This document shows, piece after piece, positions 235 through 52,000 of a stretch of DNA of 64,000 nt. Under the pieces are notes generated by a model. That model saw nothing but the letters and a program-made list of their open reading frames with translations. It searched no databases and had not been told where the DNA came from. How positions within the stretch are numbered: the first letter of the stretch is position 1; each line of letters starts with the position of its first letter. The position numbers were made by a program, and so were the translations under genes. Source of the stretch: Branchiostoma floridae. Lineage: Eukaryota > Chordata > Leptocardii > Amphioxiformes > Branchiostomatidae. Where the stretch lies: positions 5,310,803 through 5,374,802 of the forward strand of contig NC_049983.1 in NCBI RefSeq assembly GCF_000003815.2. Reading direction: 5' to 3'.

Positions 235-1053
235 GTACGAACAACATGCTAACATTTGTGGATATACGGTGGCAAAGTTGACCACATGGGGAAGTTGACA
301 CACTGTGACACGATTCTCAAAGTTGGTGTAATTTCCTGGCGCAGTCAAATTAGATATCAGCTAAAGTTGCTAAACCCTTGTGTCGACTGATACCCTAAAG
401 ACAAAAGTGTGTCTATTCATATTAGATGGCAGACACCTTGAGTGTGAAACACCGGAGGTGCTGATGCTAGTGCATATGCTGACACGGAATTCAGACCGGA
501 CTCGCCTCGTCTACATTGATAATGCAGGGAGACCGTTTCGCTCCAGGAAAAACCTAGACTGGCGGTTACTACAAGGCATAGATGAGTAAGTACCCTCTAA
601 CAACCCCGACAATCTTGTGATGCAGAAAGATCACTCTTATTTCTTGTCAAGTTTTCTTATACTCCTCATTACGTTAAGTATGGTTCTGATTGGGCGCACT
701 CTTTCCGCAGAGGATCATTTCCCAGCGGGCTTGTACGCTTTAAGATCTTGTATTGTGTGGTTTGCACAAGTCTGAGTAACATTCATTTAAGACACTGTAG
801 ATCGTTCATGTCACAGTAATGACCTGTGATATCCATGCCGGTCTGCAGGTTTCCGGAAGGCCCGGTTGTCCTGCTCCGGGACCCTTCCCGACTCCGGCGC
901 CGCCTCTTACAGTCCTTGCACATCGACAAGACTTTCTGGAATTCCGTGGGGACGAAGACAATACTGAATGTGGTACAGAATGTTGTCAACAGAGGACAGT
1001 TATTAGTAAAGTACGTCGACGAGAACTATATCGCTGTAGTTCCAGATTATTAA
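159..1053 (+). CDS. 3' end of an unrecognised gene (three exons, 5' part outside the window)
   Basis: Three open segments join in phase: 159-234, 426-585 and 849-1053 (TAA at 1051-1053). Together they give about 146 residues of a C-terminus. The first exon follows a TTTCATACAG acceptor and ends in ACAG|gtacga. The second ends GATGA|gtaagt. The third follows CTGCAG. Phases are 1 then 2, and both junctions keep the frame. The first exon encodes a Cys-Cys pair (RNCCGFNETLE); the second contains ECETPEVLMLVHML; the last contains PVVLLRDPSRLRRRLLQ and ends YIAVVPDY. I do not recognise the family and saw no membrane segment or known catalytic motif. The second exon could instead start at 408, which is also in phase but has a poorer pyrimidine tract. 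The coding look and three matching splice junctions are direct evidence; the model itself is inferred. Confidence 0.6.
426..585 (+). CDS. internal exon of the unrecognised 5' gene
   Basis: The acceptor TTCATATTAG ends at 425 and the donor GTAAGT starts at 586. The exon is 160 nt and in phase with both neighbours. The frame stays open back to a TAA at 371-373, so an alternative start at 408 is possible. Confidence 0.5.
849..1053 (+). CDS. terminal coding exon of the unrecognised 5' gene
   Basis: It starts after CTGCAG and completes a split GAG codon from the previous exon. It reads FPEGPVVLLRDPSRLRRRLL onward to the stop TAA at 1051-1053. A large interspersed repeat starts about 15 bases after the stop, so the 3' UTR is either very short or repeat-derived. 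Confidence 0.6.
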
Positions 1054-1068
1054 ATAACTGCATTGTTA

Positions 1069-2475
1069 CCTCCATGAAATATTCATGTGGTATAGTAGCG
1101 ATTGTCTGTCTGCCTGTCTGTGAACCAGATGATCCAAGAACGGAGATATGGATTAGTTTCGTGTTTGCTGTGTCGGTTGGGTGTGACGAAAATTGGAAAT
1201 GATTAGATTTGGGGCCCTCTGTTGGCTTTCCTTGGTACTGCAGCGAAACTTCTGGTTCCTATGAATGTATCTTGTGTTCTGGATATGCTATTTTTTCTAT
1301 ATCATGCTACAATTTTTGGGTAGTAAATAGCTCTTGTGCTCGGGAAGAAGTGACATAAGTTTGGGTCTCCTAGCAAAGGCGTTTCTGCCAAACATTTCCG
1401 AATAGGGTAACCAAAGAAAGGAGTAAAGGATTTTCACTTTTTTTTTGTAATAAGGTAGCTTAGACAAAGATGTACAAAATGAAATAAAAATTATGCAAAA
1501 TAGTAGGTAATTTGTGTGATCAACGGCAAAATTCTAATATCATTCTTTCAATGTATCGCTTGTCCCGAACATGATGTGTTTTTTACTTTTAGGTGACAGA
1601 TACAGTTTGACGTCAGGACGAATTGGGGTAGGTTTGGTCCCCATGACGTATCATGTCAGGACACCCCAAATGCACAAAAAAGCACCAAGGCAACGGGAAG
1701 GTAAAGAAAGGGCAATTGTCGACAATTATAACAAAAATGATAGATCAAATATCATTTTCTTTCCCATGGGTGTTTTTTTGTGCATTTGTGTTTTTCTGAT
1801 ACAAAACGAGTATAATTTCATCAATTAGTAGTATTTTCAGAAAAACACTGCTGTTTGGCAAAGTTTGAGCACAATTTTTGACGTGAATCTTTGCATCAAT
1901 GTTTATTACACAATCTATAAAGTTGTACAAAAGTTACAAAACCAGACATTCTCATGGACCACTTGAGTCTGTTGACAAGAAAATTAAAAAAATTACTGAT
2001 AATATTGTACCAGTTGCTGTATTTTCAAAGGTAACATGACGAATCCAAATGATTGTGGGTCTCAGTAAGCCATCTGGGGGGTGTATTGTTGGATGTGTAT
2101 ACAGGAATTCTGGGAAGGTAGACTGCTCCCCCTGTAGCCAAGCTAAAATGTACACATTTATAAACATGGTATGCAAAGTTGATTAGGAACATCTATAATT
2201 CCATTGTTTTCTGTTACTGGACTTCAATACATGTAACATATGTAATTTATGGCAGGTGAAACATAGACACATACCAAGCATGCAAATGAGGAACTGAGCA
2301 TATTAAACGCAAGAATTGCAAACATGTTCAATTGTGAATAAGGAGAAGTTTATACTTGTGAAATGTGTGAGTTAATGTTAAGTTAGTTGAAGTTGAACAT
2401 TACAAAGCAAGAGTCTAATTAATTGACATAAAATCTACAAGAACTCCAAATATTTCGTGGAGATATGAGGTTGTC
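1069..2475 (+). repeat. large interspersed repeat, copy 1
   Basis: It begins with CCTCCATGAAATATTCATG and ends near 2446-2470 with ATTTCGTGGAGATATGAGG. This is the inverted-end signature of a repeat seen again at 13703, 20220, 21590, 33684 and 43080. Shared internal phrases include TGTGACGAAA..GGAAATGATTAGATTT, TAGCTCTTGTGCTCGGGAAG and CAAATGAGGAACTGA. A palindromic insert (1668-1790) carries inverted arms AATGCACAAAAAAGCACC / GGTGTTTTTTTGTGCATT. There is no coding capacity. It is probably a nonautonomous transposon, class undetermined. Confidence 0.7.
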
Positions 2476-4387
2476 AAACTTTTGTTTTAAATAATATGCA
2501 TAGTATTTGAGGAGAAATGTTAGTAATATGGTACCACACTGCCAATGAACAGACAGAATTTGTCCCTTCGATGTTTACTATTTGTGACTTTGTAACTAAA
2601 TTGTCAATTATTTTTCTGTATCCTTCACTTGTTTAATTATTTTCGCAATCCATCTGGGGCCAATATGTTGATCAGTTAAAATTTTAGTATATAGATTTGC
2701 TCTAGCATGACTAAAATCGCGCCCCTAGCGGCCGGCCCTGCAATTGCCGCCGCCCTAGGAGCTCGGGGGGTCATTAACCCCAGCCAGCGAGAGATTGTGT
2801 AAACACAGGCTATGACTTGCTCAATATAAACAAAATCCACAGTTCGCTGGAAAGAGTTGGCCAAAGGGACAGATGTCAGATGTTAGAGGAGTTACCCGTT
2901 CGCATCAAGGGCTTCCTGATGATTCAGTGGAGATGAAGGCATTTTATTACCTAATCAACATTTCTTTTAAATGCTGTAATACCGATTAATTACGTTCATA
3001 GATTTTCGTTGCCGCGATAGTACATTTGCGGGTTTCATCATTATCCATCAGAAAAATCTAGTGGTGTATTGTTTTGACTTTTTCCGTGTTACTTGTCAAT
3101 TGTTCCTGAACACTATAACGTTAAGTTTGGTTTTGAATCGAGTCCACTCAGACACAATCATCAGATTTGATACTAAGAGCCGTCTTGTCCCAAATTCACT
3201 ATCAATTTCCATATCTGTTGCCATGATTCGCCATACCTTTGACATGAATGAATGAGATAAAAAAAGACGGTAATTTTAAGATGCGAATGGCAGAGACTTT
3301 ATGATATCGGAGCGAACCTTAGAATGTACCGACTGATAACCGTTCTCCAAACGCTTTAAAAATCCAACAGTTAGTTATGAATGGGTGAGCTCTAGGGGAA
3401 CTGATCTTCTGACAAGCCTCCAGGGGTGCAGTCATCTTGAAATCAACTCAATTGCTCATAAAACCTGAACAACAAATTGAGATATTTAGATCTCGGGGTG
3501 CATGGGGGATATATGCCTTTACCTTTGTGCCAAATTTCAACTCATTCAATGAAAAAAAAATGAGCCTGTTATAAAACCAATAGCATTACGTTTTCAAGAA
3601 CCCTTGTATTATTATTTGCCTTGACGTCATGCTACATGAAGACGGCAAATAAGGATCAGAAATCGCAAATTGAAAATGCATTGTTTTTAATGTAAAGAAA
3701 TTATCTACCTACCACTGTACAATATTAGAGGTCCAGATATATAAGGCTTTCTAATATAGCCGTTCATAAGGACTAGAAGGTATACTCCATTGAACCATAT
3801 TCGTAGACGAGCTAATACAAAAAGTATCTGACTGCTACAGACTAGCATTGATTCCATAACAGTACCAGTTTGTAAGTACATTGAATCGAGGCAGCAAACA
3901 ACAAACTGTTCTGAAAGCTAATAATCACCAAGCATTTCTTTTCTTGCAAGACAAATGGATTGGTTGCTTTCAATTTTACTACGAAAATCTGTTAGTATGC
4001 TATTCGAATTGAAGCTCTTCCTCTTCATGTAGCAATAATTTTACACATAAAAACTTTGCTAAAGATAGGGGTTCAAAACAAAACAACGTGGCAGAAACCT
4101 GCCTAAATACTCGACTTATGCTCAGTACAGTCCTCATAATGGATGTCTTGAGAAGCAGTAGTGCGGTCTTCAAGCAAAACTGCTGGGGAACAATGCAACC
4201 AACATGATATCATGTGAACAAAAATGTCCAGTACAGTGTTCATAGTCGTTAATTGTCAATTACGCAAGAAACCACCAATGCAAGAACCATAATTTCATAA
4301 AATATCGCTCCAAACTCAACAAACATGACGTTTTCTATATTTCTGAGTCTTGTGGGACGGATCGGCGTTTTCGGTAGTCCTCTAGTT
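2476..4387. other. intergenic sequence without a recognised gene
   Basis: Only short frames are present, with no coherent splice signals. The stretch 3430-3490 resembles 50-120 (shared phrase ATCAACTCA..GCTCATAAAA), so both are copies of a minor dispersed repeat. A GC-rich island at 2725-2790 stands out against the AT-rich background. Confidence 0.5.
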
Positions 4388-5674
4388 TCATTGATAATAT
4401 AGATATGAGGAGGGAGACGTGTGTGAGGAGGGAGACGAGTATGAGGAAGGAGACGGGTATGAGGAAGGAGACGGGTATGAGGAAGGAGACGGGTATGAGG
4501 AGGGAGACGGGTATGAGGAAGGAGACGGGTATGAGGAAGGAGACGGGTATGAGGAAGGATACGGGTATGAGGCGGCAGACGGGTATGAGGAAGGAGACGG
4601 GTATGAAGATGGATACGGGTATGAGGAAGGAGACGGGTATGAGGAGGGAGATGGGTATGAGGAAGGAGACGGGTATGAGGAGGGAGACGGGTATGAGGAA
4701 GGAGACGGGTATGAGGAAGGAGACGGGTATGAGGAGGGAGACGGGTATGAGGATGGAGACGGGTATGAGGAAGGAGACGGGTATGAAGAGGGATACGGGT
4801 ATGAGGAAGGAGACGGGTATGAGGATGGAGACGGGTATGAGGAAGGAGACGGGTATGAAGAGGGATACGGGTATGAGGAAGGAGACGGGTATGAGGAAGG
4901 AGACGGGTATGAGGCGGGAGACGGGTATGAGGAAGGAGACGGGTATGAAGAGGGATACGGGTATGAGGAAGGAGACGGGTATGAGGAGGGAGACGGGTAT
5001 GAGGAAGGAGATGGGTATGAGGCGGGAGACGGGTATGAGGAGGGAGACGGGTTTGAGGCGGGAGACGGGTATGAGGAGGGATACGAGTATGAGGAGGGAT
5101 ACGAGTATGAGGAAGGAGACGGGTATGAGGAAGGAGACGGGTATGAGGAAGGAGACGGGTATGAGGAGGCAGACGGGTATGAGGAGGCAGACGGGTATGG
5201 GTAGGATGCGGCAGGAGATGGATAAGAGGAGGGGTATGGATAGGCCGAAAGGGCGGGAACAGGGGGAAGCGAAGGAACCGGCGCAGGTGCTGACACAGGT
5301 GCAGGTGCTGGCACAGGAACAGATGCAGGTGCAGGCGCAGGCACAGGAGCGGGTGCAGGTGCAGGAACCGGTACAGGTGCTGGTGCTGGTACCGGCACAG
5401 GTGCAGGTGCTGGTGCAGGCGCAGGTGCAGGTGCTGGTACAGGTGCAGGTGCTGGTACAGGCGCAGGTGCTGGTACAGGCGCAGGTGCAGGTGCTGGTGC
5501 TGGTACAGACGCAGGTGCAGCATCTGGCTTTTGAGCCCCATCATCCACCGATCCTGCAGGTGCAGCCGGTTCTTGCGGGTACTCGTATGGCGGGTCCAGA
5601 TCACGAACACGATTCTTTCTCGATGTTTCTTTTACATCTTGCTTGTCTTGTTTCACAGGCACACCATTAACAGT
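4388..5674 (-). CDS. repeat-coding terminal exon of the Pro/Ser/Tyr-rich protein
   Basis: Single long open exon read on the minus strand from the acceptor (CAG at 5677-5675) to TGA at 4390-4388. The N-terminal part is unique sequence, then Ala/Pro/Val repeats (about 5530-5270), then SYPSPS repeats with occasional SYPYPS and SYPSPA variants. Confidence 0.7.
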   Translation of the reverse strand, partial: TVNGVPVKQDKQDVKETSRKNRVRDLDPPYEYPQEPAAPAGSVDDGAQKPDAAPASVPAPAPAPAPVPAPAPVPAPAPVPAPAPAPAPAPAPVPVPAPAPVPVPAPAPAPVPAPAPASVPVPAPAPVSAPAPVPSLPPVPALSAYPYPSSYPSPAASYPYPSASSYPSASSYPSPSSYPSPSSYPSPSSYSYPSSYSYPSSYPSPASNPSPSSYPSPASYPSPSSYPSPSSYPSPSSYPYPSSYPSPSSYPSPASYPSPSSYPSPSSYPYPSSYPSPSSYPSPSSYPSPSSYPYPSSYPSPSSYPSPSSYPSPSSYPSPSSYPSPSSYPSPSSYPSPSSYPSPSSYPSPSSYPYPSSYPSPSSYPSAASYPYPSSYPSPSSYPSPSSYPSPSSYPSPSSYPSPSSYPSPSSYSSPSSHTSPSSYLYYQ

Positions 5675-7173
5675 CTGAAAAAAGTTATACCAACTGTATC
5701 AGTTTTACTATTATTAAACAGCTTTCAATCTTTCAAGACATTTTATCAACTGTAAATGAGTACAAGGTTCTTCATTTATTGCTGTGTGGCTGTCCTTAAA
5801 AATAGGTCACCAGATCTGATAAGCACATTTTGAGCTTTAAACCTATTTTCTAACTAGCATGGAGAGCAACATGAAACAGAAAGGCCGATATTTGTTTGAG
5901 AGCAAATACAGCATATTTCAGCCATCTCCCTAAATCCAAAGCCAAAATCCCCCATTTGAAATATCACTTTTACTAATGGCGGTTTAACCCAAACATGAAT
6001 CTTACAAAAGTGCACCCCATGTGAATCTGCACAATAGACCTGTCCAGAAATACTCCAACTGAAAACATTGCCGTTTGAATAAGAAACCGAATCCAAAATT
6101 GAATTTAGAAAAAAAGGCCCCCGTGCATGACAAGGTAAAATAGACCAGTCTAAAAACACTTCCGCTAATAATGGAATTTTGAATCATCACCCGTCCAAAA
6201 TGGAATTTGAAAAATCCCCCGTCCCGCATTATAAACGACAAACAGCCTCCACGATAGAGCACCTGAATAGAGAGGTAACCTGAATGGAGAGGGTATGGTC
6301 TTCTTCATCTTTGTACAAACAAGAGCCCAAACTTTTAGCTATTCTATGTACCTCTTTTTGTTGTGATTTATTATATATGATGATGATGATGTTATATATA
6401 TCAAGCAAATATACTTTACACTTTGCGACTAAAAGTAAACTAAAAGTCCATATTTTCCACATTCTACCCTCTGCTTACGTTGAAGCGTTTTGTAGTGATC
6501 GTGTCCTAAACTTTGCCAATTTCACTGTGCGGAATGACGTGCTAAATCTGTAAAAATGACCCAAATCATCTTTGTCTGTTGCTATGACAACAATGGGTTT
6601 TGATACCGGAAAGAAACCTAGTGTGAGAGGTTGTGAGAGGTTGTGAGCACAATTTTTAGTACAGTAATTTGTAAGATACGATCATACGGGACAAATCAAC
6701 TTTTGACTTTCGACTGTTTGCTTCTTTCAGAAATTTGCTCTTGAGTTTTCACGGGCAACTAAATGTTGTGGAAAAATATAAAATTAAGCAAACAGAACGG
6801 GGAAAAGGTTCATATCATTACGCTTTACAAACGAATCCTGATACATTTGTACTGTTACTTTTCCATATATATTTGCACAATCAACGTCCAAAGACGAAGT
6901 TTTCACGCGCAGAGATGTTTGAAATTTGTACTGCTCATTTTCTGTATTGAGACTTTTTCACACAAAAAAACAAACTTTTTTTCCCGTGACAAACAAACAA
7001 CAAAAAAAACACTTAAAAAATAAAACTATTGGTATCATCATAGACCTTAACCTATGCTACATTTGCAATCAAAACTTCATTTTGGTGCCGTCGGTGGCAC
7101 ACGTCTAGTCTCAACTCACCAGAATGTTCAGGAGTAGCACTGACAGAAGGAACCCGGAGACTGCTCCCTTCAT
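4388..7173 (-). CDS. secreted Pro/Ser/Tyr-rich repeat protein (two coding exons)
   Basis: Coding exon 1 (7173 down to 7120) is MKGAVSGFLLSVLLLNIL, a textbook hydrophobic signal peptide core. It ends at a GTGAGT donor in phase 0. Coding exon 2 (5674 down to 4388) follows a strong CTTTTTTCAG acceptor and continues in phase with TVNGVPVKQDKQDVKE. The predicted product is about 446 residues. After the signal peptide comes a charged linker with a basic SRKNRVR stretch, roughly residues 23-70. Next is a block of alternating Pro-Ala/Pro-Val. The rest is about 40 imperfect SYPSPS hexapeptides ending YLYYQ and a TGA stop. There is no cysteine in the mature part. Pro/Tyr/Ser repeats of this type occur in extensin-like, adhesive, mucous or cuticular structural proteins; the exact role here is unknown. 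Other frames are also open because the repeat unit is 18 bp, but only this frame joins a signal peptide exon through good splice sites. Confidence 0.72.
4403..5215. repeat. 18-bp coding minisatellite
   Basis: About 44 tandem copies of GAGGAAGGAGACGGGTAT, with substitutions such as GAGGAGGGA, GAAGAGGGATAC and GAGGCGGGA. The unit length is a multiple of three, so copy number can change without shifting the frame of the minus-strand exon it encodes. Confidence 0.95.
5275..5525. repeat. short degenerate GGTGCAGGTGCTGGTACA-type repeat coding Pro-Ala/Pro-Val
   Basis: Imperfect 6-bp-based repeat (GCAGGT, GCTGGT, ACAGGC) on the plus strand. On the minus strand it encodes APAPVPAPAPVP-type sequence within the secreted protein's second exon. 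Confidence 0.85.
5675..7119 (-). other. intron between signal peptide exon and repeat exon
   Basis: Bounded by GTGAGT (minus, 7119-7114) and TTTTTTCAG (minus, ending 5675). It holds AT-rich sequence with an ATGATGATGATG run near 6378. No other gene is seen. Confidence 0.6.
7120..7173 (-). CDS. signal peptide exon of the Pro/Ser/Tyr-rich protein
   Basis: The ATG is at 7173-7171, giving 18 codons to the donor (GTGAGT on the minus strand at 7119-7114). The transcribed exon appears to begin at 7193 after a CTTTTTTTCAG-type acceptor, leaving about 20 nt of 5' UTR in this exon and implying an upstream noncoding exon. Confidence 0.68.
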
Positions 7174-9229
7174 TATTGGAGTTTGACGGGACGCTGAAAA
7201 AAATCATGAATAGAATATAACAACACGTTGAACATACACGGGGATTCATGTGAAATGTAATCTTTCACGATTCTACTTAATGTGCATTGTGTATGACTTT
7301 TAACAATCCATTCTACAGAAGTTGCGCATGTCAAAAATATGTAGTCTAAATGCAGAAACAAGTCCCCGTATTTCTGAACTACAATTTATTTACTCTTGCT
7401 GCTCTTGCACAAACCAAGGATATGTGGAAGTCCGTGACGGGCACTCTTCTGTACTCATGTCCCCCCCGGCCAGTACAAATGATGCACAAAATGGAAGAAG
7501 ATGAACTGCACCACATTAACAAATGCATATATGCGAGGGGAAAGATAAATGCTGCAATAAATCACCCACACAGTACTGCAAATCCATTTGCGTTCGCGGT
7601 CCCAGTGATGGTGATTCTATCTCGCGGTAATTAGGATGAAACCCAGTGTTTGCAGAGCCGTGTGAAGCTCCCGACAGCACTATAGTCACATACTCATGTA
7701 TAGTAATGGTAACCTATTCAATATTAGCCCGAATCGGGGTCGTAAAACTTTAATTATCCAAGTCAATTTTGGGGGCACTTTTCTACGTAATAAGATGAAG
7801 CAACTCTATTCCACTCCATACAATACCAACATTCAAAAATTCGATGCCGCAGTGGCAAGAGGACGCATTTAAGTCAGGGCGCTTCACCGTTGCTATTTGG
7901 GACAGGCATGTTTGAATTTTCCGAACACTCTCCGACTTCTCCCGACCTCCCCCGACCAGATCCGACGACTAGTCGCGTGGTTTACTGTGACATTTCTGCG
8001 CGCAGTCGGACCAGTTACTGGCTGGATCAAGACCTAAATTTTTGTGGGTTACAATTAAGGGTTAATGACACGCCCCGAGGTGTATATGTTGTCATAACTT
8101 CGCTCACTCGGTGGTTTTATTCGGTGGTTATAGCAAAGGCCCAGGCGTCATGACACCATATACACTGAGGAACAGGAGGGTCATTAACGTTATTATCATA
8201 TAGCCTACCCAAACTTGCAAACTCCTGTATGACGCATAGATCCCTTCGTACTATACCCGATGTCGGTGTCGATTCATTGTGACCAATCATCATCATCATC
8301 ATCATCTGACCAATCAGAAGGAGCTATGAACACCGGGTTGGCCGGAATAACCAACATGGAACGGGGCCTTCTGATTGGTCCGCGGGGCCTGGCGATAACT
8401 GTTATGATAATAGTTAGTAAATCCTAGCGCGTTTTTTTCTGCGCCTTTTTAACCGCTCAGAGTATGAACTAATGATGTAAATGTGGGAATATAGTGCAGT
8501 AGATATCAATTTCAAACAGATCGCCGTATCCAGATTATTTCCATTTTTGACGCTAACATATTGCTTAGAGTGCCTTTAAGGTGATATCTCACGTGTATTG
8601 GACTTAGGGTACTAGTACGGCACAGCGGTTTTTATTCTATTTTTGCCAACTTTCCCTTGCTCTTACACTGACGTGCGGCACTGTTGCGTTTCTAGACTAA
8701 TCGAACATGTTATTGGAAATCGCAGCATTGTTACTTTATGACAAATCAGTGTAAAATCATGAAATGCACCAAAAAGATATTTGTGATGAAAGGATATTTC
8801 CTTACGCTACTCGGTGCAACATAAGTAACATATGGTGAATTACATGTTACATGTGTTTTGTATAACATTGAAAGACTTTTACAGTAGAAGACCCAAATGA
8901 ACGGACACGAACCATATACTTAGTACAAGATTTGAGGCCATGTTGATTCAATTATATGGATGGCATGCTGTAGGAAGCTCAAAACTGATGCGAGCGTGCA
9001 AATGAAAGAAGGAAAAAAACGTTGCCTTTAATTTGAATTCTGTGGTCAAGAATGTTGAAAAATGCACAGAGCATGTGTTCTATCAATCGTGCCTTGTTAC
9101 TGTTTCGCGTGTCTTCACCGTTTCAGGTACATCCAATGCGCCAACACATGCCAATAAGCCAAGGCCACAGGCGGGCAAAAGACAGAACCAAACTCAAAAC
9201 TTAAATTTAAGTTAAAAATTACAATAGCA

Positions 9230-10694: not shown

Positions 10695-10830
10695 CAGAAA
10701 TGTTCGCGGTGGATTAATGTTCGCGGTGACCACTTCACCGCGAACTTAAAACCAACGCGAACATTTTCTATTATTGTATTAGACTGCAGTCTATGGTGTT
10801 ACCGCGAACTTAAATCCACCGCTAAAAGTC
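10695..10830. mobile_element. palindromic inverted-repeat element (CGCGGTGGATT ends)
   Basis: Left GTTCGCGGTGGATTAATG and right TAAATCCACCGCTAAAAG are inverted, and a second internal pair is formed by TTCGCGGT/ACCGCGAA. There is no coding capacity, as expected of a MITE or foldback element. It sits between two opposed LINE ends. Confidence 0.65.
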
Positions 10831-10954
10831 CACACGTATAAATGAAGACGAGGCTGTACAGTGGAAACGTAGGGCGCAAAGCGTGCTAGAAAAACGGGTC
10901 TCCGAATCGGTCTGGTGCCCCGATGAGGGTCTGCATGCTTTAATCCTTTTGATT

Positions 10955-11490
10955 TCACTTAATAAAGTGCAAAAAAGGGCAACCAAAAGAGTGCCGGGTC
11001 TGGCGGATCTACCCTACCCAGATAGACTTAGGAGTCTTCACCTCCCCACATTGGTATATAGAAGACTAAGAGGCGACCTAATAAACACCTTCAAATACAC
11101 GAAAGGACTATACGACACTCCATGTTTAGTCCACACGTCTGTTGAAACAAGAACAAGAGGCCACCAGTTAAAACTAAAAAAATCCCTGGCGAAAACAAAT
11201 ACACGGCTATACTCCTATACAAATCGGGTCGTCAGCTGGTGGAACAATCTCCCAGAGGAAGTAGTGATGGCACCAACTGTGAACGGTTTTAAAGCAAGAT
11301 TTGACAAACATATGAAAGACCATCCCGTCGTATACAACTACAGGGCACTGGACCATGCCCTAAGTCCGAAAATGTCAGTATCCTGAGAACCCCGAATTGA
11401 AGAGCAGGCCAAACTGGAGTGGATACTCCTACCGGACTGGAAAAACTCTACTCTACTCTACTCTACTCTACTCTACTCTACTCTACTCTA
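10955..11490 (+). mobile_element. 5'-truncated non-LTR retrotransposon (CR1/L2-like), 3' end with (CTACT)n tail
   Basis: The frame NKVQKRATKRVPGLADLPYP through RLRSLHLPTLVYRRLRGDLI to WWNNLPEEVV and VNGFKARFDKHM is the familiar C-terminal region of animal CR1/L2-type reverse transcriptase polyproteins. The stop is TGA at 11384-11386. The element ends in about eight CTACT units (11450-11490). Endonuclease and catalytic reverse transcriptase domains are absent, so this is a dead copy. Confidence 0.85.
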
Positions 11491-17714: not shown

Positions 17715-19608
17715 CGCCTGCTCAACACATCTATTTTGCCTGCTCAACACACCAACTTTGCCTGCTCAACATACCAACTTTTCCTGCTCAACACACCGAC
17801 TTTTCCTGCTCAACACACCGACTTTGCCTGTTCAACACACCAACTTTTCCTGCTCAACAGACCGACTTTGCCTGCTCAACATACCAACTTTGCCTGCTCA
17901 ACATACCGACTTTGCCTGCTCAACACACCAACTTTGCCTGTTCAACACACCGACTTTGCCTGCTCAACACACCGACTTTGCCTGCTCAACACACCAACTT
18001 TGCCTGCTCAACATACCGACTTTGCCTGCTCAACACACAAACTTTGCCTGCTCAACACACCAACTTTGCCTGCTCAACATACCAACTTTTCCTGCTCAAC
18101 ACACCGACTTTTCCTGCTCAACACACCGACTTTGCCTGTTCAACACACCAACTTTTCCTGCTCAATAGACCGACTTTGCCTGCTCAACACACCAACTTTG
18201 CCTGCTCAACACACCGACTTTGCCTGCTCAACACACCAACTTTGCCTGCTCAACACACCGACTTTGCCTGCTCAACAGACCGACTTAGCCTGCTCAACAG
18301 ACCGACTTAGCCTGCTTAACATATCAACTTTGCCTGCTCACCACACCGACTTTGCCAGCTCGACAAACCAACTTTGCCAGCTAAACACACCGACTTTGCC
18401 AGCTCAACACACTGACTATCTCATTTATGCCTGCTCAACACACCAACTTTGCATGCTCAACACACCAACTTTGCTTGCTCAACACACCAACTTTGCATGC
18501 TCAACACACCGACTTTGCATTCTCAACACACCGACTTTGCATTCTCAACACACCGACTTTGCCTGCTCAACACACCAACTTTGCCTGCTCAACACACCAA
18601 CTTTGCCTGCTCAACACACCGACTTTGCCGGCTCAACACACCGACTTTGCCTGCTCAACACACCGACTTTGCCTGCTCATCGCCGTGACAGACTTTGCCT
18701 TCTCAACACACCGACTTTGCCTGCTCAACGCCGTGACCGACTTTGCCTGCTCAACACACCGACTTTGCCTGCTCAACACACCAACTTTGCCTGCTCAACA
18801 CACCAACTTTGCCTACTCAACACACCGACTTTGCCTGCTCAACAGACCGAGTTTGCCTGCTCAACACACCAACTTTGCCTGCTCAACACACCGACTTTGC
18901 CTGCTCAACACACCGACTTTGCCTGCTCAACGCCGTGACCGACTTTGCCTTCTCAACACACCGACTTTGCCTGCTCAACGCCGTGACCGACTTTGCCTGC
19001 TGAACACACCGACTTTGCCTGCTCAACACACCAACTTTGCCTGCTCAACACACCAACTTTGCCTGCTGAACACACCGACTTTGCCTGCTCAACACACCGA
19101 CTTTGCCTTCCCAACACACCGACTTTGCCTGCTCAACGCCGTGACCGACTTTGCCTGCTGAACACACCGACTTTGCCTGCTCAACACACCAACTTTGCCT
19201 GCTCAACACACCAACTTTGCCTGCTCAACACACCGACTTTGCCTGCTCAACACACCAACTTTGCCTGCTCAACACACCAACTTTGCCTGCTCAACACACC
19301 GACTTTGCCTTCTCAACACACCGACTTTGCCTGCTCAACGCCGTGACCGACTTTGCCTGCTGAACACACCGACTTTGCCTGCTCAACACACCAACTTTGC
19401 CTGCTCAACACACCAACTTTGCCTGCTCAACACACCAACTTTGCCTGCTCAACACACCGACTTTGCCTGCTCAACAGACCGACTTTGCCTGCTCAACACA
19501 CAAACTTTGCCTGCTCAACACACCGACTTTGCCTGCTCAACACCGTGACCGACTTTGCCTGCTCAAAACACCGACTTTGCCTGCTCAACACACCGACTTT
19601 GACTGCGC
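17715..19608. repeat. 22-bp minisatellite array (~85 units) with higher-order structure
   Basis: Head-to-tail units CAACACACC(G/A)ACTTTGCCTGCT (22 bp), with an A/G polymorphic site and occasional CTGCTGAAC or TTCTCAAC variants. From 18675 on, a 26-bp variant containing GCCGTGACCGA appears at about 18679, 18729, 18929, 18979, 19136, 19338 and 19541. This gives a repeated spacing near 202 bp, which equals eight 22-bp units plus one 26-bp unit. Because 22 is not a multiple of three, all plus frames read the same LLNTPTLPAQHTNFAC-like peptide, so the long frames are artefacts. Confidence 0.95.
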
Positions 19609-20219: not shown

Positions 20220-20660
20220 TAACAAGAGATACATTGAAAAGACTGCTATGATAGAATATTCTCATTTATTATGCAAATGTACTCCTATTTTGCATAATTA
20301 GTATCTTATCTTGTCCAACATTGTCTAAGGTACCTACATACCAAAAATGATGAAAATCCATTGTTCCCTTCTTGAGCTATCGTCTTCAGAGGTTTTTGAC
20401 AAAAATGCCCCTGCTATCCCAAAACTAGAAGCTAGGGGGCCCAAACTTATGTCACTTTATTTCTAAGCACAAGAGCTATCTAACACCTCAAAACCGTGAT
20501 CATAGCGTGTTCAGAACACGAGATAGCCATACCGGAAGTTGCGCTGCAGTATGAAGGGAAGCCGCTGGGGGGCCCAAAATCTAATCATTTTCAGCTTTCA
20601 TCACACACTACCAACACACCAAGTATGAAACCAATTCCCTCAGCCGTTCTTGAGTTATCT

Positions 20661-20749
<89 letters not shown>

Positions 20750-20818
20750 AGACACACGCACACACACACACACACACACAGACACACGCAGGGTATCTCC
20801 ATGACATTTCATGGAGGT
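20220..20818 (-). repeat. large interspersed repeat, copy 3 (partial, minus), with CT/CA microsatellite
   Basis: Minus-orientation copy of the family. The right end is TCTCCATGACATTTCATGGAGG (20797-20818, itself a palindrome). A pure (CT)n run (20661-20693) then a (CA)n run (20694-20790) lies just inside it. Confidence 0.7.
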
Positions 20819-28000: not shown

Positions 28001-31000
28001 GGGTCGGGTCAAAAATTTTTTGCTAGGCCCTCCCCCCAGGTCAAAATTTTTTTTGCTAGGCCCTCCCCCCAAGTCAAATTTTTTTTGCTAGGCCCCCCCC
28101 CCCTCCTATCAACTTTGAAAAAATATTCAAGAATCCGATAAAACACTGCGCTCTCATTTGGAAATGTGCTTTGCGTCATACTTTTTCATGATTTTCATCG
28201 CGAAGTAGATCTCTCACCCCTAGTAAAAAGGAAAACAGAATGGCTCAAAATATCTAAATATCTGCTGTAGTGGTGCGTACCGGAGCTCACATTCCGGTTC
28301 AGGTCCGGGCTCGAGTCCAGAGATTCCGGTTCAGGTCCGGACTTATAAGTCCGGTTTTTGACGGCCGCTAAATTTTTCCGCATCAACACAAGCGTTAAGC
28401 GACCAGGCCGCATGCGATAAAAAAATATTGCCGAAGACATCAATTTTCAATGATAATTTTCGGGAAATCACGGTAGAATATGGCCTTTTCGGCTTGCGTT
28501 TTGACGGCCCGAAATTTCAGCATGGCGCTTGCGAGGTCAATACGGGTCATTGGGATAGCCTACTGTAATGCGGGTAGAAGCGACGCGCGCGGTTTCATTA
28601 TTCTCTTCATTTAACCTTACAAATGAATTGTAAGTTTATTCGTTACAGATTTAAAGAAAAGGAATATAAAATAAGTTTATGACTTCATAATATTTATTTA
28701 AATAAAGGTGTCTGTGTTTCTTTTTAACAAACTGCTCGCCCATGCTTTTAGTGAAGTAGCCCGACAAGCGACAAACATGACAACAAGCGCGGGTGATTTG
28801 TTTTTTCTCGGGAAATTTCTCATTTACATGTATCAGAAGGTATGGGACTTCTAAAACCCACACCAGAAGATAAACAAAATCACAGACGTTATTTTCATGG
28901 GTTAAATTACTAAAATGAACCAGTCATTTTTGCCGCGTTGCCAGATTTTGAAACAAGGTTTCTGTGCGGACGGTGGCGCGACCATGTGCTAATGGCCCGC
29001 TCATGGTGGTAGGACAATCTATTTTCGCAAACATACAGTTATTTTCGGGCCCGTTGGCTGCAGTTAATAAAGTAACATAGGTATCTAGCGTTGTTTTAGA
29101 TGATACTAGTATACAACAAGAAAGAGATTTCCGGTTCTCAAAAGAAAAACGGTTTTCTACGTTCCGGTTTTAACCGGACTTGAACCGAAAGTTATAGCAA
29201 GTCCAATTCTACGCACCACTAATCTGCTGCATAGAGACATAGATATTTGCTTTATAGCAGCTATTTCATTGTTTTGATATTAAAACAACACCTAAAAAGC
29301 ATTTGTACCTGGATTTCTAGTAGATTTGCGCCACGAAGCGGCACGCGGCCCGCCCTCTTAATTTACGCATTGCAAGCTCGTGGCCTGAGCGGCTTGACGG
29401 AAACTATTTTCAATTTACATAATATATTTTGAACTTTTTCTTGGTTCTGTGGTGGTAATAACTTACGGTAAATCAGGGAAAAAATTACCAAAAAAAACGA
29501 CAGAACGATTCAAGTAACCAAAACTGTAGTGGGGAGGGGGGGAGGCTCGTTACTAAAACACAACCAGTAGATTTCTAGCGAGGACATGATCCCTTCACAT
29601 GCAAAGTACCCAATTACCACGTACTGGTCTTGTATAGCGCAAATAGATAGTATCAAGAAGGTTATGGTTTGAAGGTTTGGTGCCGACGCGTAACGCTGAT
29701 TTTCCCATGGCGGGGTAGACCGGTCGCCTCTCTCTAGCCGCCGGCGGGCGTGAGAACGCAGACTTGCAGGAGATCTTTTAAAAATGCCACGCTCTTTTGC
29801 CACGATTTCCTGCATTGCATTTTAATGGGCAAATTTGCTGGTTAAATGACATTTCTATAAAAAAAAACCCTCTGACACGAGGGTTTCAAGTTTTTGAGAA
29901 CGACGTTCCAAACACCATGTCCGGCGCCAAAGGCACGAAGAATCGCAAGGTAGGTTCGGGGAAATTTTGAAATCTTGACCCTCTTAAAAGCCGTATTTCC
30001 TGCCGTTTGAGGGAAATATTTTGCTGGCAAGCAAAGCTAACTTAAATGGCGTTTCAATTTAGAAATACAAAATTAAATCCCTCCGAACACATTATCACAA
30101 TGTCGGTCACCAAAGGCGCGAGGCCCGGCCTGAGGTCACGTCAAAAGGGATCCAGGGAAATTTTTACAAATTTTTACCCTCGAGCTCTGAAACGCCAGTT
30201 ACATTTTGAGGGCAATAGGCCAGGGGTAAATTTTGCTGGCAGACTAATCTAGAGTTTAATAAAATTTCTGTAAGTGAAAAGGGTTTTCAAGCGCAATGCA
30301 TAAGCCCCGCCTCCTCCCCTTTCGCATTTTCACTGTGTCCCGAGCGCTGACCATGGGCGATCCCTTGCATGCGGAGGCCAGTCCAGAAAAATTTTGAAAT
30401 CTTGACCCTCTGAAACGCTGTTTCTTGGATTTTAAGGGACAAATTTTGCTGGTAGACCAAGCTAATTTTTTTTGCTTGGCCCTCCCCCCAAGTCAAAAAT
30501 TTTTTGCTATGCCCTCCCCCTGGCTCAATATTTTTTTGCTAGGCCCTCCCCCCTCTGGCGACCGGCCCTCCCCCTTGCTAAATGCCGTACGGTCCCTAAA
30601 GATATCAAAGTCTAGTATACATCATATCATCACATTCTTTACATCAAAGTGTTAGAAAGATAATAAAAATGTCTGTCATGGTACGTGTTTAAAAATTTGA
30701 TAAGTTTTGATATATGCACCCAAAAATTTTTTGGTGTATGCCGGTTTTTAGCACGCATTTTGAGTCAATTTGTTGACAATGTTTGGTTTGACATTTTCGT
30801 GTAATTATCCGGAATTGGTAATTTTTCGTGATGCAGATAAGAGAAGTCATGCCAAACAGAACATTATAAATGTTTTGCCATTTGCTAACAAATATTGTGA
30901 TTTTCATTATTCATGTACATGTAGCAGTGGGGTTCAAGGACTGAACCCCACTGCTACATTCATATCGGATTCCAAAAGTCATCTTGAACTTTTCATTGGT

Positions 31001-34000: not shown

Positions 34001-37000
34001 GCTATCTACTTGAATGTCAAGACGATATGTCCGGGACAAGAGATGTACTCCTTTTTTGCATAATTAGTATTTCATTTTGTACAACGTTGTCTAAGATACC
34101 TACATACAAAAAATCATGAAAATCCGTTGTTCCCTTCTTGAGTTATCGTCTTCAGAAGTTTTTGACAAAAATGCCCCTGCTATCCCAAAACTAGTCGCTA
34201 GGGGCCCAAACTTATGCCACTAATTCATAAGCACAAGAGCTATCCAACACCCAAAAATCGAGACCATAGCATGTTCACAACATACAATGTAAGATAGCAG
34301 AATAAAGGGGGGAAAACGCCTGGGTATTTGCTATCTCTACCTCCATGCTGAATTTCAGCTCATTTGGCCCAAAAATGAAAAAAAAGTTGAATCCATTTGA
34401 AGATTTAACAGTAGAAGAAGAAGAATGAGAAGAAGAAAAACATATCAAACTAGAAAGACAACATTTTTGAAAAAAATGCAGGATGTGGGCGAAGGGAAAA
34501 GAAAGCAAAAATCGCAAGAAAAGAAGCAACAAGAAAGGCAACATTTACGCGAAAATGCAGCAAAAAGAAAAAAAAATTAAAAAACATTATCTGTCCACGG
34601 ATTCGATCCCAGAGCGTTGGTTTACCACGCGTGTATAATACCACTGTGCCAGTGCTACGACATGTTACATGCGCATGTTTTAACAGGTATACAAATGTAT
34701 TGCGTTGCTTGAACACGTCCGTTCACCTTTGAATTTGCAAGATTCCAAGGTCCAATTTTCTGAAGATAAGGTTTTTGTGTGAAAATTTATCAATCTCGTT
34801 CATTCCATCGTCACCGAAACTCCGCGATTTTCCACACGGCGGGGGAGGCCGGGCGGCCCCGCTGGCGAAACCCGCGACCTTCCGCTGGCTATTTCTCGCT
34901 TATAATCGAAGGTATTTCACTAAAACTTGGACAGAATACTAGAATAATTTTTTGCAGGGGCATTTTTATGTTGTTATTTAGCCGATTAGATGCTCTGAAC
35001 TTGCTGCATTTTCAACGTTTTTCGGCCCCGTAACCGGTTCTACCCAACGTCCAATACCCCTACTTTTTGTGATACTGCGCTGCCGAGTGCCATTTTGTGA
35101 CCTGTGCGTTGATAGGTTTACCCCTGGCGTATCCACCAGACAGTCAGAATGTCAGCCAATCAAAAAGCTGGAAACGTGGACTGCATGCTACAGGTTCCAT
35201 TTTTTCTGAGTTTTGATTGGTTGGGTGGTATATCTGTAGAGATACTAAATGTGTGGCTTCGCCCACATAAATACAATAACCCATTAGTCAATGGAATCCG
35301 ATATAAAACCCCTTAAACTAAAAACTAAGTGCATGTAAAATCAACGCCAACATACAATTTTGAATGTATGATTACTCAAAAAAGTATTGCTAGCACACTT
35401 GCCATGGGTTCAATGTGGGCTTACAAGTCCAGACCTGAACTTGGGTTGTACCCTACATCTGACTATATTCTTGATATACCGGTGTGATGATATTTGTTTT
35501 TGACTGTATTGTTGATACATCAGTGTGATGATATTTGTTTTTACAGAAAATGAACATCTGTTACCTGTCCTTCCCTGACTCCAACTCTGGTAAGTGTGGT
35601 GAAACATCTCTCATTCTTGAATGAAGAAAAACATGTAAATAAAGCGTACCATATTCCTTGTACTTTATGAGTCTTGACATGCATATGTCAACTTTAAAGT
35701 TGGTCAAAGCCAAAGTCCAAATGCATACTTAATTTAGGTTTTCTCTCAAGAAAATTGCTACAACTTAGAAGTACAAGCCAGGAATTCGCTGCAGTATTGT
35801 CCTGAACATTGATAATAATTTACTTATCATCTTTTGTCTACTATTTACAAGATAATGGTGTTCCATGAATTTAAATCATGTAATAGACATACATTACACT
35901 TAGTATTAAAAAGTGTTTTGTTATACTTATGTTGCTAAGGATATTGTGAGAAAACAACTGGAAAAAAAAAGTTGGCAATCGCCCAATTCAATTTGCAGTG
36001 TGCTGGGGCTGGCCGTCACAACAAATAATTTATCCCTGAGTTATCATCGGGCTGCACACCGGCACAATGTTCATATCCATGAACATTGCGAGAGAAAGCA
36101 TAATCGTTAATATCTGAAAATGTTGCAAGGTTCTTCTTAGTGGGAGTTTTGTTTTTGTTTTATGAGTAAAATGCAAACTTATTGTGGAAACCCACGCTGC
36201 TTTCAGTACACTTCAGATTCAGTGCTAGAGACACTGTAAATCTGCATATAAATGCATGTTTCCTCAGAAGGTTCTTTGAACTATTCCTCAACTCGAATAT
36301 TGCAATGTAATTGGTGAAAATAACGTTCTGTTGTGTTTTGACACTTTTGAACAAAAAATTGCGGGTGGGCTTGCTGCCCCTTCTTTAGCTTGACCAGCAT
36401 GAGTTCTAAGGGGGTTTCCCTTCATTATGCAAACATCAACCAATCAGAGGTGCATATTGCGAGTATGTGATGCTAGAGCTGTAGACAAAAGTTACTGTTA
36501 CTTTTCCTAGTCTTAATTGATGATGCCTGCAATAACGCCGACAGTTCTGTGTGGAAGTATGTCGATGATATGAACATGTTAGAAACTAGAACCCTCAACC
36601 AGGCATCTACTCTACAAAGTGATCTGGATGAGTTAAACTCCTGGTCTGAAACTAACCATATGCTTTTGAACAGTGGTAAGTGTATGGTCATGCATGTCTA
36701 CTTTAGCCGGAATCCCCCATTGCTGCCATCGCTACAAATAGGTGATGTGTCACTGCCCGAAGTCCCCAGCTTGAAACTACTTGGTGTGTTTGTCCAAAAC
36801 AACCTACGCTGGGACAAACAAGTGAACTACATGGAGGGGAGAGCAGCTAAGAAGCTGTACTTCCTTAAACGACTCAAAAGGTTTAACCTCTCCCATAGTG
36901 ACCTCACCACCATCTACACAGGATACATTAGACCTATCCTGGAGTATGCAGCCCCTGCCTGGTCCCCCGGTCTCACTAAAACCCAAGAATGAAACCTTGA

Positions 37001-40000: not shown

Positions 40001-43000
40001 TGGATGCAACATAGGATCTGCTGACTTTCACAAAGTTTCAGTGCTTTGGCGACAAACACATTTGTACATGTAAGATAGTTATTTTACATGGGATACATTT
40101 CAGAAATGTAAAAAAAATAGTATCATAAACAATCACAGCACTGCCGTTGGGGAAATCATCAGACACTTGTGCAATTGCATGCCATCTTGATCATGCAAAA
40201 ATTCTAGATACAAAATCAAGAAAAGCTGGCTTGAGAAAGCATATTATATTCTGTATCACATCACATTGGCAGATAGATAATTTAGATTCTACCCAGATCG
40301 ATATTGATTCTTGTCTTGCACTTGTTTTATTTTCAGCAATCCCTTGTAATCACCTGCGAAAAGTCGCATACCCATGTAGTTCCAGAGCCGAGGAAATCCT
40401 GGGGGGCCCTCATATTTGTGAACTTAATCAAACAAGCCACAACACTAGATAGGCATCGTAATTCGTATGTTTTAAATAGATTTGACAGAAATTGGACAAA
40501 GGTTTCGGTGGTCCCATGTGGGTCAGCTGATCGTGTGGGAAAAAGTTAAAACTAGAGTGGCACTGACAGTCCGGGGTTGCCTGACTGTCTGGCACGGAGC
40601 GCCGGCAAGTCTGTGACTTTGTCGCAAGCTCGTTCTGATTTCGTTAGCCATTGAGTGCAGAGAATTGAAAAATAACGATAGACGTACTAAAGAGTACTGA
40701 AAGTACAGTGGTTCATTACTTTGGAGCTCTTGGCGTGATTCGTTTCCAAAAGTAAACAACATTCAATGACATGTATGTTAGTACGAATCTACAGACCGGC
40801 GATGCCACAGTCTATGTTACTATGGTTGTAATTGTGATGGACAGTCATGTGGTTTTATCTATAACAATATTCAAACACCTCAGCATATCGATAACTTCTA
40901 GAATGTGTAATAGTTTCCAGGAAACATATCTACAAGAGATGCCCACAGTTTCTAACCTCCATGCTGTTATCTACATTTTCTCTTCTCTATTTGCCAGGTT
41001 GCATGGGAGACACACAGTTCTGTTTCCGGATTCGTCAGAGCCCAGGACGGAAGGCACCTTCACATACAGACACACAATGGGAGAGAGATGCACCAGTCTA
41101 CCTACATCGGGACCACGCCCATTACTATGGTTACGTGTACTTCCGTCAAGTAAAGGACAAGTCTTCAAGGAGAGGATACTTCCAGAAGGCATGTAGAATA
41201 GAGGGTTAACGACCCACCCAAGGTTTATATGAATTATGATGTCAGAAAGCCTAAGAATGATTTCTTCAGTGGTTATAGCAAATTACTCAACCCTCTGGAA
41301 AAAACTGATGCACCCCCAAACCAACCTCGGATAGGTATCATGGCCAATGTACATTGTACCCTACAGACTCAAATGTGAAGAACCCAACTGCACAATATCT
41401 AGTACATACTAAAAGATTGCCTGAAATTTTTCCTGTTCTACCCCCACAGTCACTCGTGCTGGTCACCCGGCTTCCCTTCAACAACCTTTTCAACTTCCTG
41501 ACAGAGATTGTCGCTCCAGAGTACTTTGACAATGGAGAGCCCTGCCTGGAAGCTGCCTGTCATGACATTGACCAGTGGCCTTCTCCACAGCCTGGGGAGA
41601 CTCTGTCACTTCCTATGATGGGGATGGTCATACAGGTTAGAGGTGCTTTCTTAGGACATACTGGGGTACCGATTTTTACATAGGGGGGAGGATTGCTCCC
41701 ATAAAAAATTAAGCTGAAACTGTTGAAATATTTTCACTAGTAAAAGTTTAATCAAATTTACTTTACCAGCTTAAACAGGCATTGTTAATGCTATAGCAGT
41801 GATGTACAGAGACACATCTGCAGTTGTTATCACCCCAGATGGAGAAACTGACATGTTTAGCATTGACACTGGTGTACTGCAGGAGGACCCTCTTACCCCA
41901 TTTTTATTCATGATATGTCTATACTACGCGTTAAGGTGCTTGATTTCAGACACTGATGGTTTTACACTCCGTTGTCAGCGTAGTAGTTGCCACCCTGTAG
42001 AAGTTCTTGCTGATATTGACTTTGCAGACGACATTGCCCTTTTGGAAAATTCATTACTTTTTGCACAAATCCTGTTAGATAAAGTAGAGGTGGCATGTCA
42101 GGCCATCGGTTTATATTCTAACCCATCCAAAACAAAATACATGCATATACATGTAAACCCAACATCTTCCCAGCAACTGTATGTCTGACGGCTCTGAAAT
42201 CGAGCGTGTAGTAGACAAAAAATATTTAGGGGGTTATACAAATTCTGAGAAAGATATGGAATATATATATATATATAGGGTTGCTCAAGCTTGGAGAAAG
42301 ATATGGAATATATATATATATATATATAGGGTTGCTCAAGCTTGGAGTTCTCTCCATTCTTTACAGAAGATATGGAAAGCAACCCCACATTTTACAAAAA
42401 GTACAGTCAAGCCATTTCACATGGAAATCTCACTGGAGCAACTACTTCAGATGAAATGGAAAACGTTATCTCTGAATGGGCCAGCTATAAATGTTTGACT
42501 CTGAAAGGTAAAAGGAAACCTCTGCAGAAAAAAATAAAAACAAAAGATGGTTCAATAAAAGTTGCACGGAAATGAAACGTGAAATGAAAAACCTAGCTAC
42601 CCTACTCGAAAAACACCCACTGAACCCAGAAATATGGGAAAAATTCAAAATGAAAAAGGAATACAGAAAATTGGTTAAAAAGCAAAAGCGTGACTTTCAG
42701 CAGAAAATATCCCACCCGCTATTGTCTCTCAGGGAAAGTTTTTCTGGAACTTAGTAAAGAAACTAAAGCCAGAAAAAATAGCAGGAGGCAACCAGATCTC
42801 AGACGAGGTGTGGTTACAATACTTAAATAACCTATAGAACAAAAATCTACCAAACACGACTAGGGATTGTGATACCAACCTTCCCGCCACAGAAACTGTG
42901 GACACTTCTTCCATGTTTAGCACTGCTCCAATAGACAGATATTTTCTTGACACCTATCCCTAATAGACAATACGATTAATGTTAGGCCATTCTATTTATA

Positions 43001-49000: not shown

Positions 49001-52000
49001 TCTTCTTCTGTCATGAAGTTCCTCGCATAACTGCTAGGAGGTGATGGTAGACTGGAGGCTGCAAGCAGATTGTGCTTCCTCCTTATGTAACTGCGTCTTA
49101 GTTAAAACTCATTTTTCATTGGGATGTGAATATGTTTTTTTCTTTTTTGGTAACTCCTTGGCGGAGCCTTATTTTTTTTATGGCATTGTATATGAGTTTG
49201 TTTGTTTGTTTGTTTGTGCCTTTATTTTGACTCGATAGATACTCCATCGGCCTATGAGTAGCTTAACACAAGGCAAATACCTGTCACGGAACATCCTGCA
49301 GTTTCTGGACAATGTTGCCCTTCTAGTTTGGAATTCACTTAATAAATTGTATTACATTTCTTGATAGTAATAACTGTTAACACTTTTTCATTTGTTCAAT
49401 GACATTGTTTTCATCCAGCCCATAATTGTGATGGCACCTTCTCCAACTGTGTGTTCTGAAACAGTATTGGCACTTACTAGGTAAGTACATTGATTATACT
49501 GTTAGGGACCGTACGACATTTAGCGAGGGGGGAGGGCCGGTCGCCAGAGGGGGGAGGGCCAAGCAAAAAAATACTTGCCAGGGGGAGGGCCTAGCAAAAA
49601 AAAATTGACTTGGGGGGAGGGCCAAGCAAAAAAAAATAGCTTGGTCTGCCAGCAAAATATGTCCCTTAAAATCCAAGAAATGGCGTTTCAGAGGGTCAAG
49701 ATTTCAAAATTCTTCTGGATCTCCGCAAGGGATCGCCCAAGTTCGGCGCTCGGGACACAGTGAAAAATGCAAAAGGGAGGGGGCGGGGCTTATGCATGAC
49801 GCCCTCGAAAACCTTTTTCAGTTACAGAAATGTTATTAAACTCTAGATTAGTCTGCCAGCAAAATTTACCCCTGTCTTTAATATTGTCCTCAAAATGTAA
49901 GAAATGACGTTTCAGAGCTCGAGGGGAAAGATTTGCAAATTTCCCTGGATCCTTTTGACGTGACCGGACTCGCGCCTTTGATGACCGACATTGTGATAAT
50001 GTGTTTGAAGGGTGATTCACTTTTGTATTTCTAAATTGAAATGCCATTAAATTTAGCTTTGTTTGTCAGCAAAATATTTCCCTCAAACTGAAGGAAATAG
50101 CTTTTAAGAGGGTCAAGATTTCAAAATTTCCCCGAACCTACCTTGCGATTCTTCGTGCCTTTGGCGCCAGACATGGTGTTCGGAACGTCGTTCTCAAAAA
50201 CTTGAAACCCTCATATTTTTTTCATAGAAATGTTATTTAACCAGCAAATTTTCCCTTTAAAAAGCAATGCAGGAAATCTTGGCAAAAAGCGTGCCATTTC
50301 TAACAGATCTCCTGCAAGTCTGCGTTCTCACGCCCGCCGGCGGCTAGAGAGAAGCAACCGGTCTTCCCCTCCGTGGGAAAATCAGCGTCGGCGACCCCCT
50401 CCCCACTACAGTTTTGGTTAGTCAAATCGTGCTGTCGTTTTGGTTTTCATTTTTTCCCCCGATTTACCATAAGTTATTACCACCACAGAACCAAGAAAAA
50501 GTCCAAAATATATGTAAATTGAAAATAGTTTCCGTCAAGCCGCTCAGGCCCGCGAGCTTGCAATACGTAAATTTAGGGGGCGGGGCGCGCGCCGCTTCGT
50601 GGGGCAAATCTACTAGAAATCCAGATACAAATGCTTTTTAGGTGTTGTTTTAATATCAAAACAATGAGATAGCTTCTATAAAGCAAATATCTATGCCTCT
50701 ATGAAGCAGATATTTATCCCTCTATTAAGCAGATATTTTGAGCCATTCTGTTTTCCCTTTATTTCTAGGTGTGAGAGATCTGCTTCGCGATGAAAATCAT
50801 GAAAAAGTATGACGCATTTAAGCACATTTCCAAATGGGAGCGCAGTGTTTTATTGGCGTCTTGAATATTTTTTTTCAAAGTTGATAGGAGGGGGGAGGGC
50901 CAAGCAAAAATATTTTGACTTGGGGGGAGGGCCTAGCAAAAAATTTTTTACCTGGGGGGAGGGCCTAGCAAAAATTTTTTGACCCTCTGGCGACCGGCCC
51001 TCCCCCCTCACTAAACGCCGTACGGTCCCTTACTGGTACTGTTATACTCATCATTCACTCACTCATTCATCCTCGCCACATACTGTATCAGTCTTTCAAC
51101 CACTCGGGACTGAGCAAAGAATGGTTGCTGACTGAGGACAGGTGGCTATTCCTGACAAATTGGTTGGCTGGTCGGATGAGTGATGTACATGTATCGTATA
51201 GTAATATTGGCTTATGCAAGAAGGAAAACTAGACATGAGAAACAGGAATTTTTGCTTGGGAGAGCATCTTAACTATGTAAAAAAGGACAGGACTGTTTCA
51301 ATGTGTGCTCTGTCAGGTGGTTGCCTGCACCTGGTGGTAGCTTGGACAGTTGTGACTGTACCATGGTTTTCAGAAGGTACTGTATATCACTAGTACTAGA
51401 AAGCCTGATTACCCTTACTCCAACTGCTGTGCTCTTACTGGAATTCAGAGGTGCTAAAATTTCATACACAACACATGTACTGGTAAGGATGTTTACACAT
51501 GGTACTAGTTTGAGATTGGCAGGGAAATCTAGGTACTTTTTTTGCAATTGACCTGCAAAATCCGTCATAGTGCTTGTAGCACAAAAGCATTATCATGATC
51601 ACAAATGAACTATTCTTGATTTGTTGAATACAGTCAGATTTTGCTGAGCAGTCTTACTGTGTTGATGTGTTTCAGTATGATATCTCCACTGAACTTCTGC
51701 TCAGACTTCCGTCCTTACTTCACCATCCATGACAGCGAGTTCAAGGAGTACACCACTAAAACACAGGCTGCGTAAGTACATTGTTAACTGAACTTAGATT
51801 TTTTATCAGCATGAAGTGCAAGCAACGTTAGTAAGTCTATTGCCGAACGTTTGTATGACTTTATCCTGGTTATAGTGAATTCGTTCTGTACACATACATG
51901 TACATACTAAATTATTGTGCATAATTCCTGTTACATTGTAGGAACCCCTATTGAATTTTCTAGATTCAAGTACACACTTTTTAAAGTTTTCATACAGAGC

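Follow-up and report, generated by a model that had tools for sequence, protein, structure and literature searches.

The 64,000-nt stretch of lancelet DNA analyzed here (the window) carries on its minus strand a gene model with two coding exons, and the secreted Pro/Ser/Tyr repeat protein predicted from its sequence is well supported. The first exon (7120-7193) consists of 20 nt of 5' untranslated sequence, an ATG at 7173 with an A at -3, 18 signal-peptide codons (MKGAVSGFLLSVLLLNIL) and a phase-0 donor (CTG/GTGAGT). A 1445-nt GT-AG intron (5675-7119) separates it from a single large exon (4388-5674), whose acceptor, AACTTTTTTCAG/ACT at 5675/5674, has a branch-like CTGAT at -28. This exon comprises 428 codons and a TGA stop at 4390-4388, and the phase-0 join of 7193-7120 to 5674-4388 gives a product of 446 amino acids without cysteine. 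The coordinates, strand, splice sites and phase that a sequence-only reading had assigned to this gene were confirmed by direct reading of the minus strand.

Directly 5' of the signal-peptide exon, at 7194-7206 on the same strand, lies a pyrimidine tract with an AG acceptor (TTTTTTTCAG/CG), implying an additional untranslated exon farther upstream, which we regard as a candidate. A scan to 12000 for its donor gave GTRAG(T/A) sites at 8592, 8666 and 11517, with none singled out. Downstream, the nearest polyadenylation-like hexamer of the form A(A/T)TAAA is an ATTAAA at 3686-3691 on the minus strand, about 700 nt past the stop, a weak signal that matches in consensus only. Within the window, the exon pieces and the intron matched only themselves, while the flanking DNA had matches at a few scattered positions.

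Over the 1284 coding nt of the large exon, minus frame 0 is the sole frame of the six without a stop, the other five holding 2, 3, 46, 6 and 1. This frame contains no Met, so an upstream exon is needed to start translation. Four ATG-initiated, phase-0 exons with a GTRAGN donor occur between 12000 and 5675, and only that at 7193-7120 has a GTRAGT donor; it also encodes a signal-peptide core. When both strands of the window were scanned for signal exons, this exon was the sole match, and a match occurred in 1% of 400 Markov sequences of 3 kb; the criteria of the scan were fixed after the exon had been seen, so that these numbers serve as an illustration and not as a blind test.

By construction, a stop-free array of period 18 leaves several frames open, and long frames are indeed found on both strands here. 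The locus might thus be a non-coding minisatellite, in which an 18-bp array lacks stops by chance and lies downstream of a fortuitous signal-like exon, an explanation that we consider improbable. In its favor, another large minisatellite is present in the window at 17716-19606, and a second TRF row, which treats the Pro-Ala block as 24-bp units, has 11% indels. In addition, a count that took each distinct change in the SYPSPS array once, over units 1-42 of 44, found 4 of 9 to be synonymous where 2.7 (29.6%) were expected, a difference that is not significant; the array by itself is therefore no proof of coding. However, one frame is common to two different repeat blocks and to the unique linker before them, and the signal exon has a consensus donor. 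TRF described the Ser/Pro/Tyr array as 44.2 copies of 18 bp with 90% match and the Pro-Ala/Val block as 12.5 copies of an 18-bp unit with 76% match, both with 0% indels at this period. The 22-bp array at 17716-19606 has 3-5%, but some short arrays of the window likewise have 0%. The spacings between unit hexamers point the same way: none of 37 deviated from multiples of 18 in the 18-bp array (4391-5134 examined), compared with 6 of 52 in the 22-bp array that were not divisible by 22. Differences between neighboring units were also concentrated at third codon positions in both blocks. Counts at positions 1, 2 and 3 were 4, 18 and 42 in the Pro-Ala block (period 6; third 42/64) and 15, 12 and 40 in the SYPSPS block with the last three copies omitted (third 40/67), or 22, 16 and 45 with all 44 copies. 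The binomial p-values of this excess (1e-7 and 9e-6) presuppose independence, an assumption that duplicated copies violate.

The third-position excess cannot choose the strand, because a plus-strand frame encoding an acidic (GYEEGD)n protein has its third codon positions on the same bases as the minus frame (a correspondence established by hand). This frame, plus 1, runs for 268 amino acids without a stop (4398-5204), and it could be argued that it is the true product of the locus. We consider this highly improbable, since the frame has six stops over the exon and no Met, counts that do choose the minus strand, and since its (GAGT)n part is severed by stops at 5202, 5223 and 5241. In the other long plus frame (4378-5670, MRKETG), third positions hold only 16 of 83 neighboring-unit differences by hand count. 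Taken together, the minus-strand model very probably represents a real gene.

The product contains 137 Ser, 134 Pro, 58 Tyr, 45 Ala, 22 Val and 3 Thr. The proposal that the mature chain lacks cysteine held, and extends to all 446 residues. According to the (-3,-1) rule, the signal peptide could be cleaved after residue 19 or 22. We infer that cleavage after Gly22 (VNG/VPVKQ) is preferred, in which case the predicted signal peptide ends in TVNG, four residues encoded by the large exon (5663-5674). The mature protein from Val23 has a predicted mass of 43.3 kDa and a pI of 5.1. It would begin with a unique linker (residues 23-74; 5507-5662) that is basic at first and then acidic and Pro-rich. The linker had been described as basic, which is correct for approximately residues 23-43 (7 K/R, 4 D/E) and not for the whole, whose net charge is -2. 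An RKNR at residues 37-40 resembles a furin site, at which the chain may be cut.

Two repeat blocks follow in the same exon, as had been proposed. The Pro-Ala/Pro-Val block (residues 75-152; 5273-5506) is 47% P, 33% A and 17% V. The Ser/Pro/Tyr block (residues 161-446; 4391-5248) is 45% S, 30% P and 20% Y, and its residues 183-446 form 44 units in a 6-residue register, 28 of which are exactly SYPSPS. The suggested regularity of the tyrosines was also found, with a Tyr-to-Tyr interval of 6 in 33 of 57 cases. The tyrosines are not confined to a tail, as the sequence-only reading had it, but enrich the whole second block. The repeat blocks contain no Lys or Arg and have a net charge of 0.

When the 428 residues of the large exon were submitted to AlphaFold as a single sequence, the mean pLDDT was 43.6 and the pTM 0.15. 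The pLDDT was below 50 in 327 of the 428 residues and between 70 and 90 in 44, and no secondary structure was assigned. Ten-residue bins with a mean pLDDT above 70 (71-76) were limited to exon residues 61-110, inside the Pro-Ala block. Since the input was a single sequence, this is weak evidence for the lack of a fold. The low profile agrees with a disordered chain bearing a polyproline-type rod and is proof of neither.

From these features, we estimate a probability of about 0.5 that the locus is a genuine animal gene, probably restricted to its lineage, whose product is a disordered structural protein of an extracellular surface or matrix, cross-linked via its tyrosines. Signal cleavage at Gly22, possibly with furin-type trimming at RKNR, would leave 424 residues at most. 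Of these, the (PA/PV) block would form an extended, stiff polyproline-type rod acting as a spacer, and the 44-unit SYPSPS block a flexible, uncharged tail in which tyrosines recur at intervals of about six residues. Once the protein is secreted, a peroxidase or phenoloxidase might link tyrosines of different chains by dityrosine formation or quinone tanning, and the coupled chains would make up an insoluble, extensible film or coat. The secreted Pro/Ser/Tyr repeat protein of the sequence-only reading is thus upheld on the sequence, and its extracellular structural, Tyr-cross-linked polymer is the best reading by composition and analogy. Several points count against such a polymer, namely the 45% Ser beside proline, which could mean heavy O-glycosylation, the lack of a GYR or YLP motif, and the non-significant synonymous bias of the SYPSPS array and the period-24 indels mentioned above. 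If the gene is expressed, its product would be an animal-surface building material of a kind easily passed over as low complexity. The repeat number may differ among individuals, which opens length polymorphism and material properties to testing.

The reading as an adhesive or mucous material, offered alongside the structural one, is less favored. It is possible, although on balance unlikely, that the Ser-Pro block is O-glycosylated as in mucins and forms a hydrated, lubricating or mucous coat, the tyrosines being incidental or sulfated. The signal peptide, the tandem repeats and the content of 137 Ser and 134 Pro in 446 residues would suit such a protein, but it has only 3 Thr, and a PTS domain would not usually contain as much Tyr as the second block (20%). 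Gel-forming mucins, in addition, have Cys-rich VWD, C8 and CK domains, which are absent here (no Cys, no Pfam family). As far as described in the portion available of a study on a tunicate gel-forming mucin, its multimers depend on cysteines and disulfide-linked parts (PMC6109156); without any Cys, the present protein has none of these parts. A small soluble Ser-Pro glycoprotein is possible.

The adhesive role is somewhat less favored than the structural one, as the repeat blocks are devoid of Lys and Arg. Proteins of the mussel foot protein-1 type are built of Tyr- and Lys-bearing, Pro-rich repeats with DOPA, whereas there is no Lys in the repeat blocks here, and we know of no attachment organ in the lancelet. 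A DOPA-type adhesive or cement protein, comparable to those of mussel foot and tubeworms, is therefore quite improbable in our view. There is nevertheless some likeness. In the parts of two reports that we draw on, byssal and tubeworm cement proteins are secreted, some have short tandem repeats rich in Pro and Tyr, and some are predicted to be disordered (PMC6474901, PMC4275877). Among the byssal proteins, Dbfp2 contains YPTYPEKK, while Dbfp9 contains (Y/S)GYPGN, which like some other byssal repeats lacks lysine (PMC6474901). On the other hand, in the same parts of these reports several byssal repeats are lysine-bearing or basic, and so are the tubeworm proteins Pc-1 and Pc-2, which contain DOPA (PMC6474901, PMC4275877); the repeat blocks described here are uncharged.

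Searches for relatives of the cross-linked polymer that we prefer gave little. Neither the whole protein nor residues 1-71 matched a Pfam family at E up to 10, in a search in which the HMMER filters drop most weak matches. The strings GYR and YLP are absent from the 446 residues, and there was no match to the corresponding families (PF02756 and PF02757). A sequence search of the PDB with residues 1-74 gave two matches (best E 0.72), none credible as a relative. With the full protein, 7 distinct PDB sequences were obtained at E up to 0.01, six aligning with the Pro-Ala block and one with residues 320-377, in the Tyr block; the two alignments inspected were both of low complexity, and we rejected these candidates. 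Patterns from residues 1-74 matched 15 times in viral contigs and 97 times in prokaryotic genome contigs, with none confirmed in either collection, both of which say little for an animal gene. A degenerate SYPSPS DNA pattern had no match in the viral contigs. In the literature, the SYPSPS-type repeat letters retrieved only papers unrelated by title or the start of the abstract. No such protein appeared among the amphioxus, Branchiostoma and lancelet matches listed, which were open-licence papers judged by titles and abstract starts that often leave the animal unnamed.

The rest of the window was also surveyed. The minisatellite at 17716-19606 has about 85 copies of 22 bp with higher-order units of 44 and 66 bp, and its plus-strand frames are open for up to 436 amino acids. 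As 22 is not divisible by 3, its three frames give nearly the same 22-residue text, so that the length of these ORFs does not speak for a gene. What appears to be one 32-bp minisatellite (GGCCCTCCCCCC core) occurs at 28007-28102, 30468-30553, 49548-49644 and 50890-50984, twice in each orientation, and is possibly carried by a mobile element. A text shared by 989-1258 (minus) and 20484-20801 (plus), GKP..GPKSNHFQ.SSH, represents a repeat dispersed within the window. Outside the arrays, the window has 120 ORFs with 80 or more amino acids, 10 of which were searched against Pfam; eight had no match at E up to 0.1, and no recognizable neighbor gene was seen among the 10. Two plus-strand stretches, 36477-36989 and 41775-42185, are likely reverse-transcriptase fragments, with RVT_1 scores of 16.6 and 26.8 bits, below the curated cut-off of 29.6; one of the two ORFs also matched ALKBH8_N and Pho88 below cut-off. 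The segment at 10826-11383 has no Pfam match and resembles the end of a further non-LTR element ORF. Rfam found no family in the window at gathering scores, and the tRNA-Ser (cga) called by ARAGORN at 53829-53901 on the minus strand is for this reason perhaps a tRNA-derived repeat.

Several known systems resemble the gene in part. In plant extensins and proline-rich tandem-repeat proteins, repeats with Ser-Pro and Tyr lend themselves to cross-linking of the wall, but the SPPPP motif is absent from the 446-aa sequence and the gene context appears to be of animal type. Vertebrate SCPP genes have an untranslated first exon, a signal-peptide exon ending past the cleavage site, phase-0 introns and a large Pro-rich exon. 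The phase agrees with this plan, whereas here the preferred cleavage site lies 4 residues beyond the end of the signal exon, and a literature search linking SCPP gene structure to amphioxus found nothing. Arthropod cuticular and vitelline-membrane-like proteins are likewise secreted, low-complexity components of extracellular coats in which spaced tyrosines are conserved, but carry, in the part of the source used here, YLP/GYR motifs that have no match in our protein (PMC2932725).

The closest gene design found, by our reading, is that of nematode epicuticlin-1. The Ascaris gene Asu-epic-1, as far as the section consulted describes it, has a 55-bp signal exon, a 1593-bp intron and a 1067-bp second exon of tandem repeats up to the stop, and encodes a disordered, Ala/Pro-rich chain with spaced tyrosines, dityrosine being reported in the insoluble layer (PMC9612446). 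The gene model described here follows the same plan, with 54 coding nt in the signal exon, a 1445-nt intron and a single tandem-repeat exon ending in the stop, and its product is also Ala/Pro-rich and predicted to be disordered, with regular Tyr. It differs in the implied untranslated first exon and in its repeats, which are 6-residue units without Pfam match, whereas those of Asu-epic-1 in that section are about 50 residues long with GYR (PF02756) and YGD (PMC9612446). Because of the absent GYR and the unit length, we do not class it as an epicuticlin. A bolder proposal, which we put forward tentatively, is that a chordate-lineage orphan polymer with a stiff N-terminal PA/PV rod, a 44-unit charge-free SYPSPS tail and periodic Tyr cross-links arose by minisatellite expansion within a single exon and converged on the epicuticlin gene plan, serving as a main component of the lancelet skin, cirral, notochord-sheath or egg coat. 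If expressed, the gene would be a separate case of the plan that joins a signal exon to one tandem-repeat exon, and nematode epicuticlin-1, as far as that source describes it, would be its functional analogue rather than a member of the same family.
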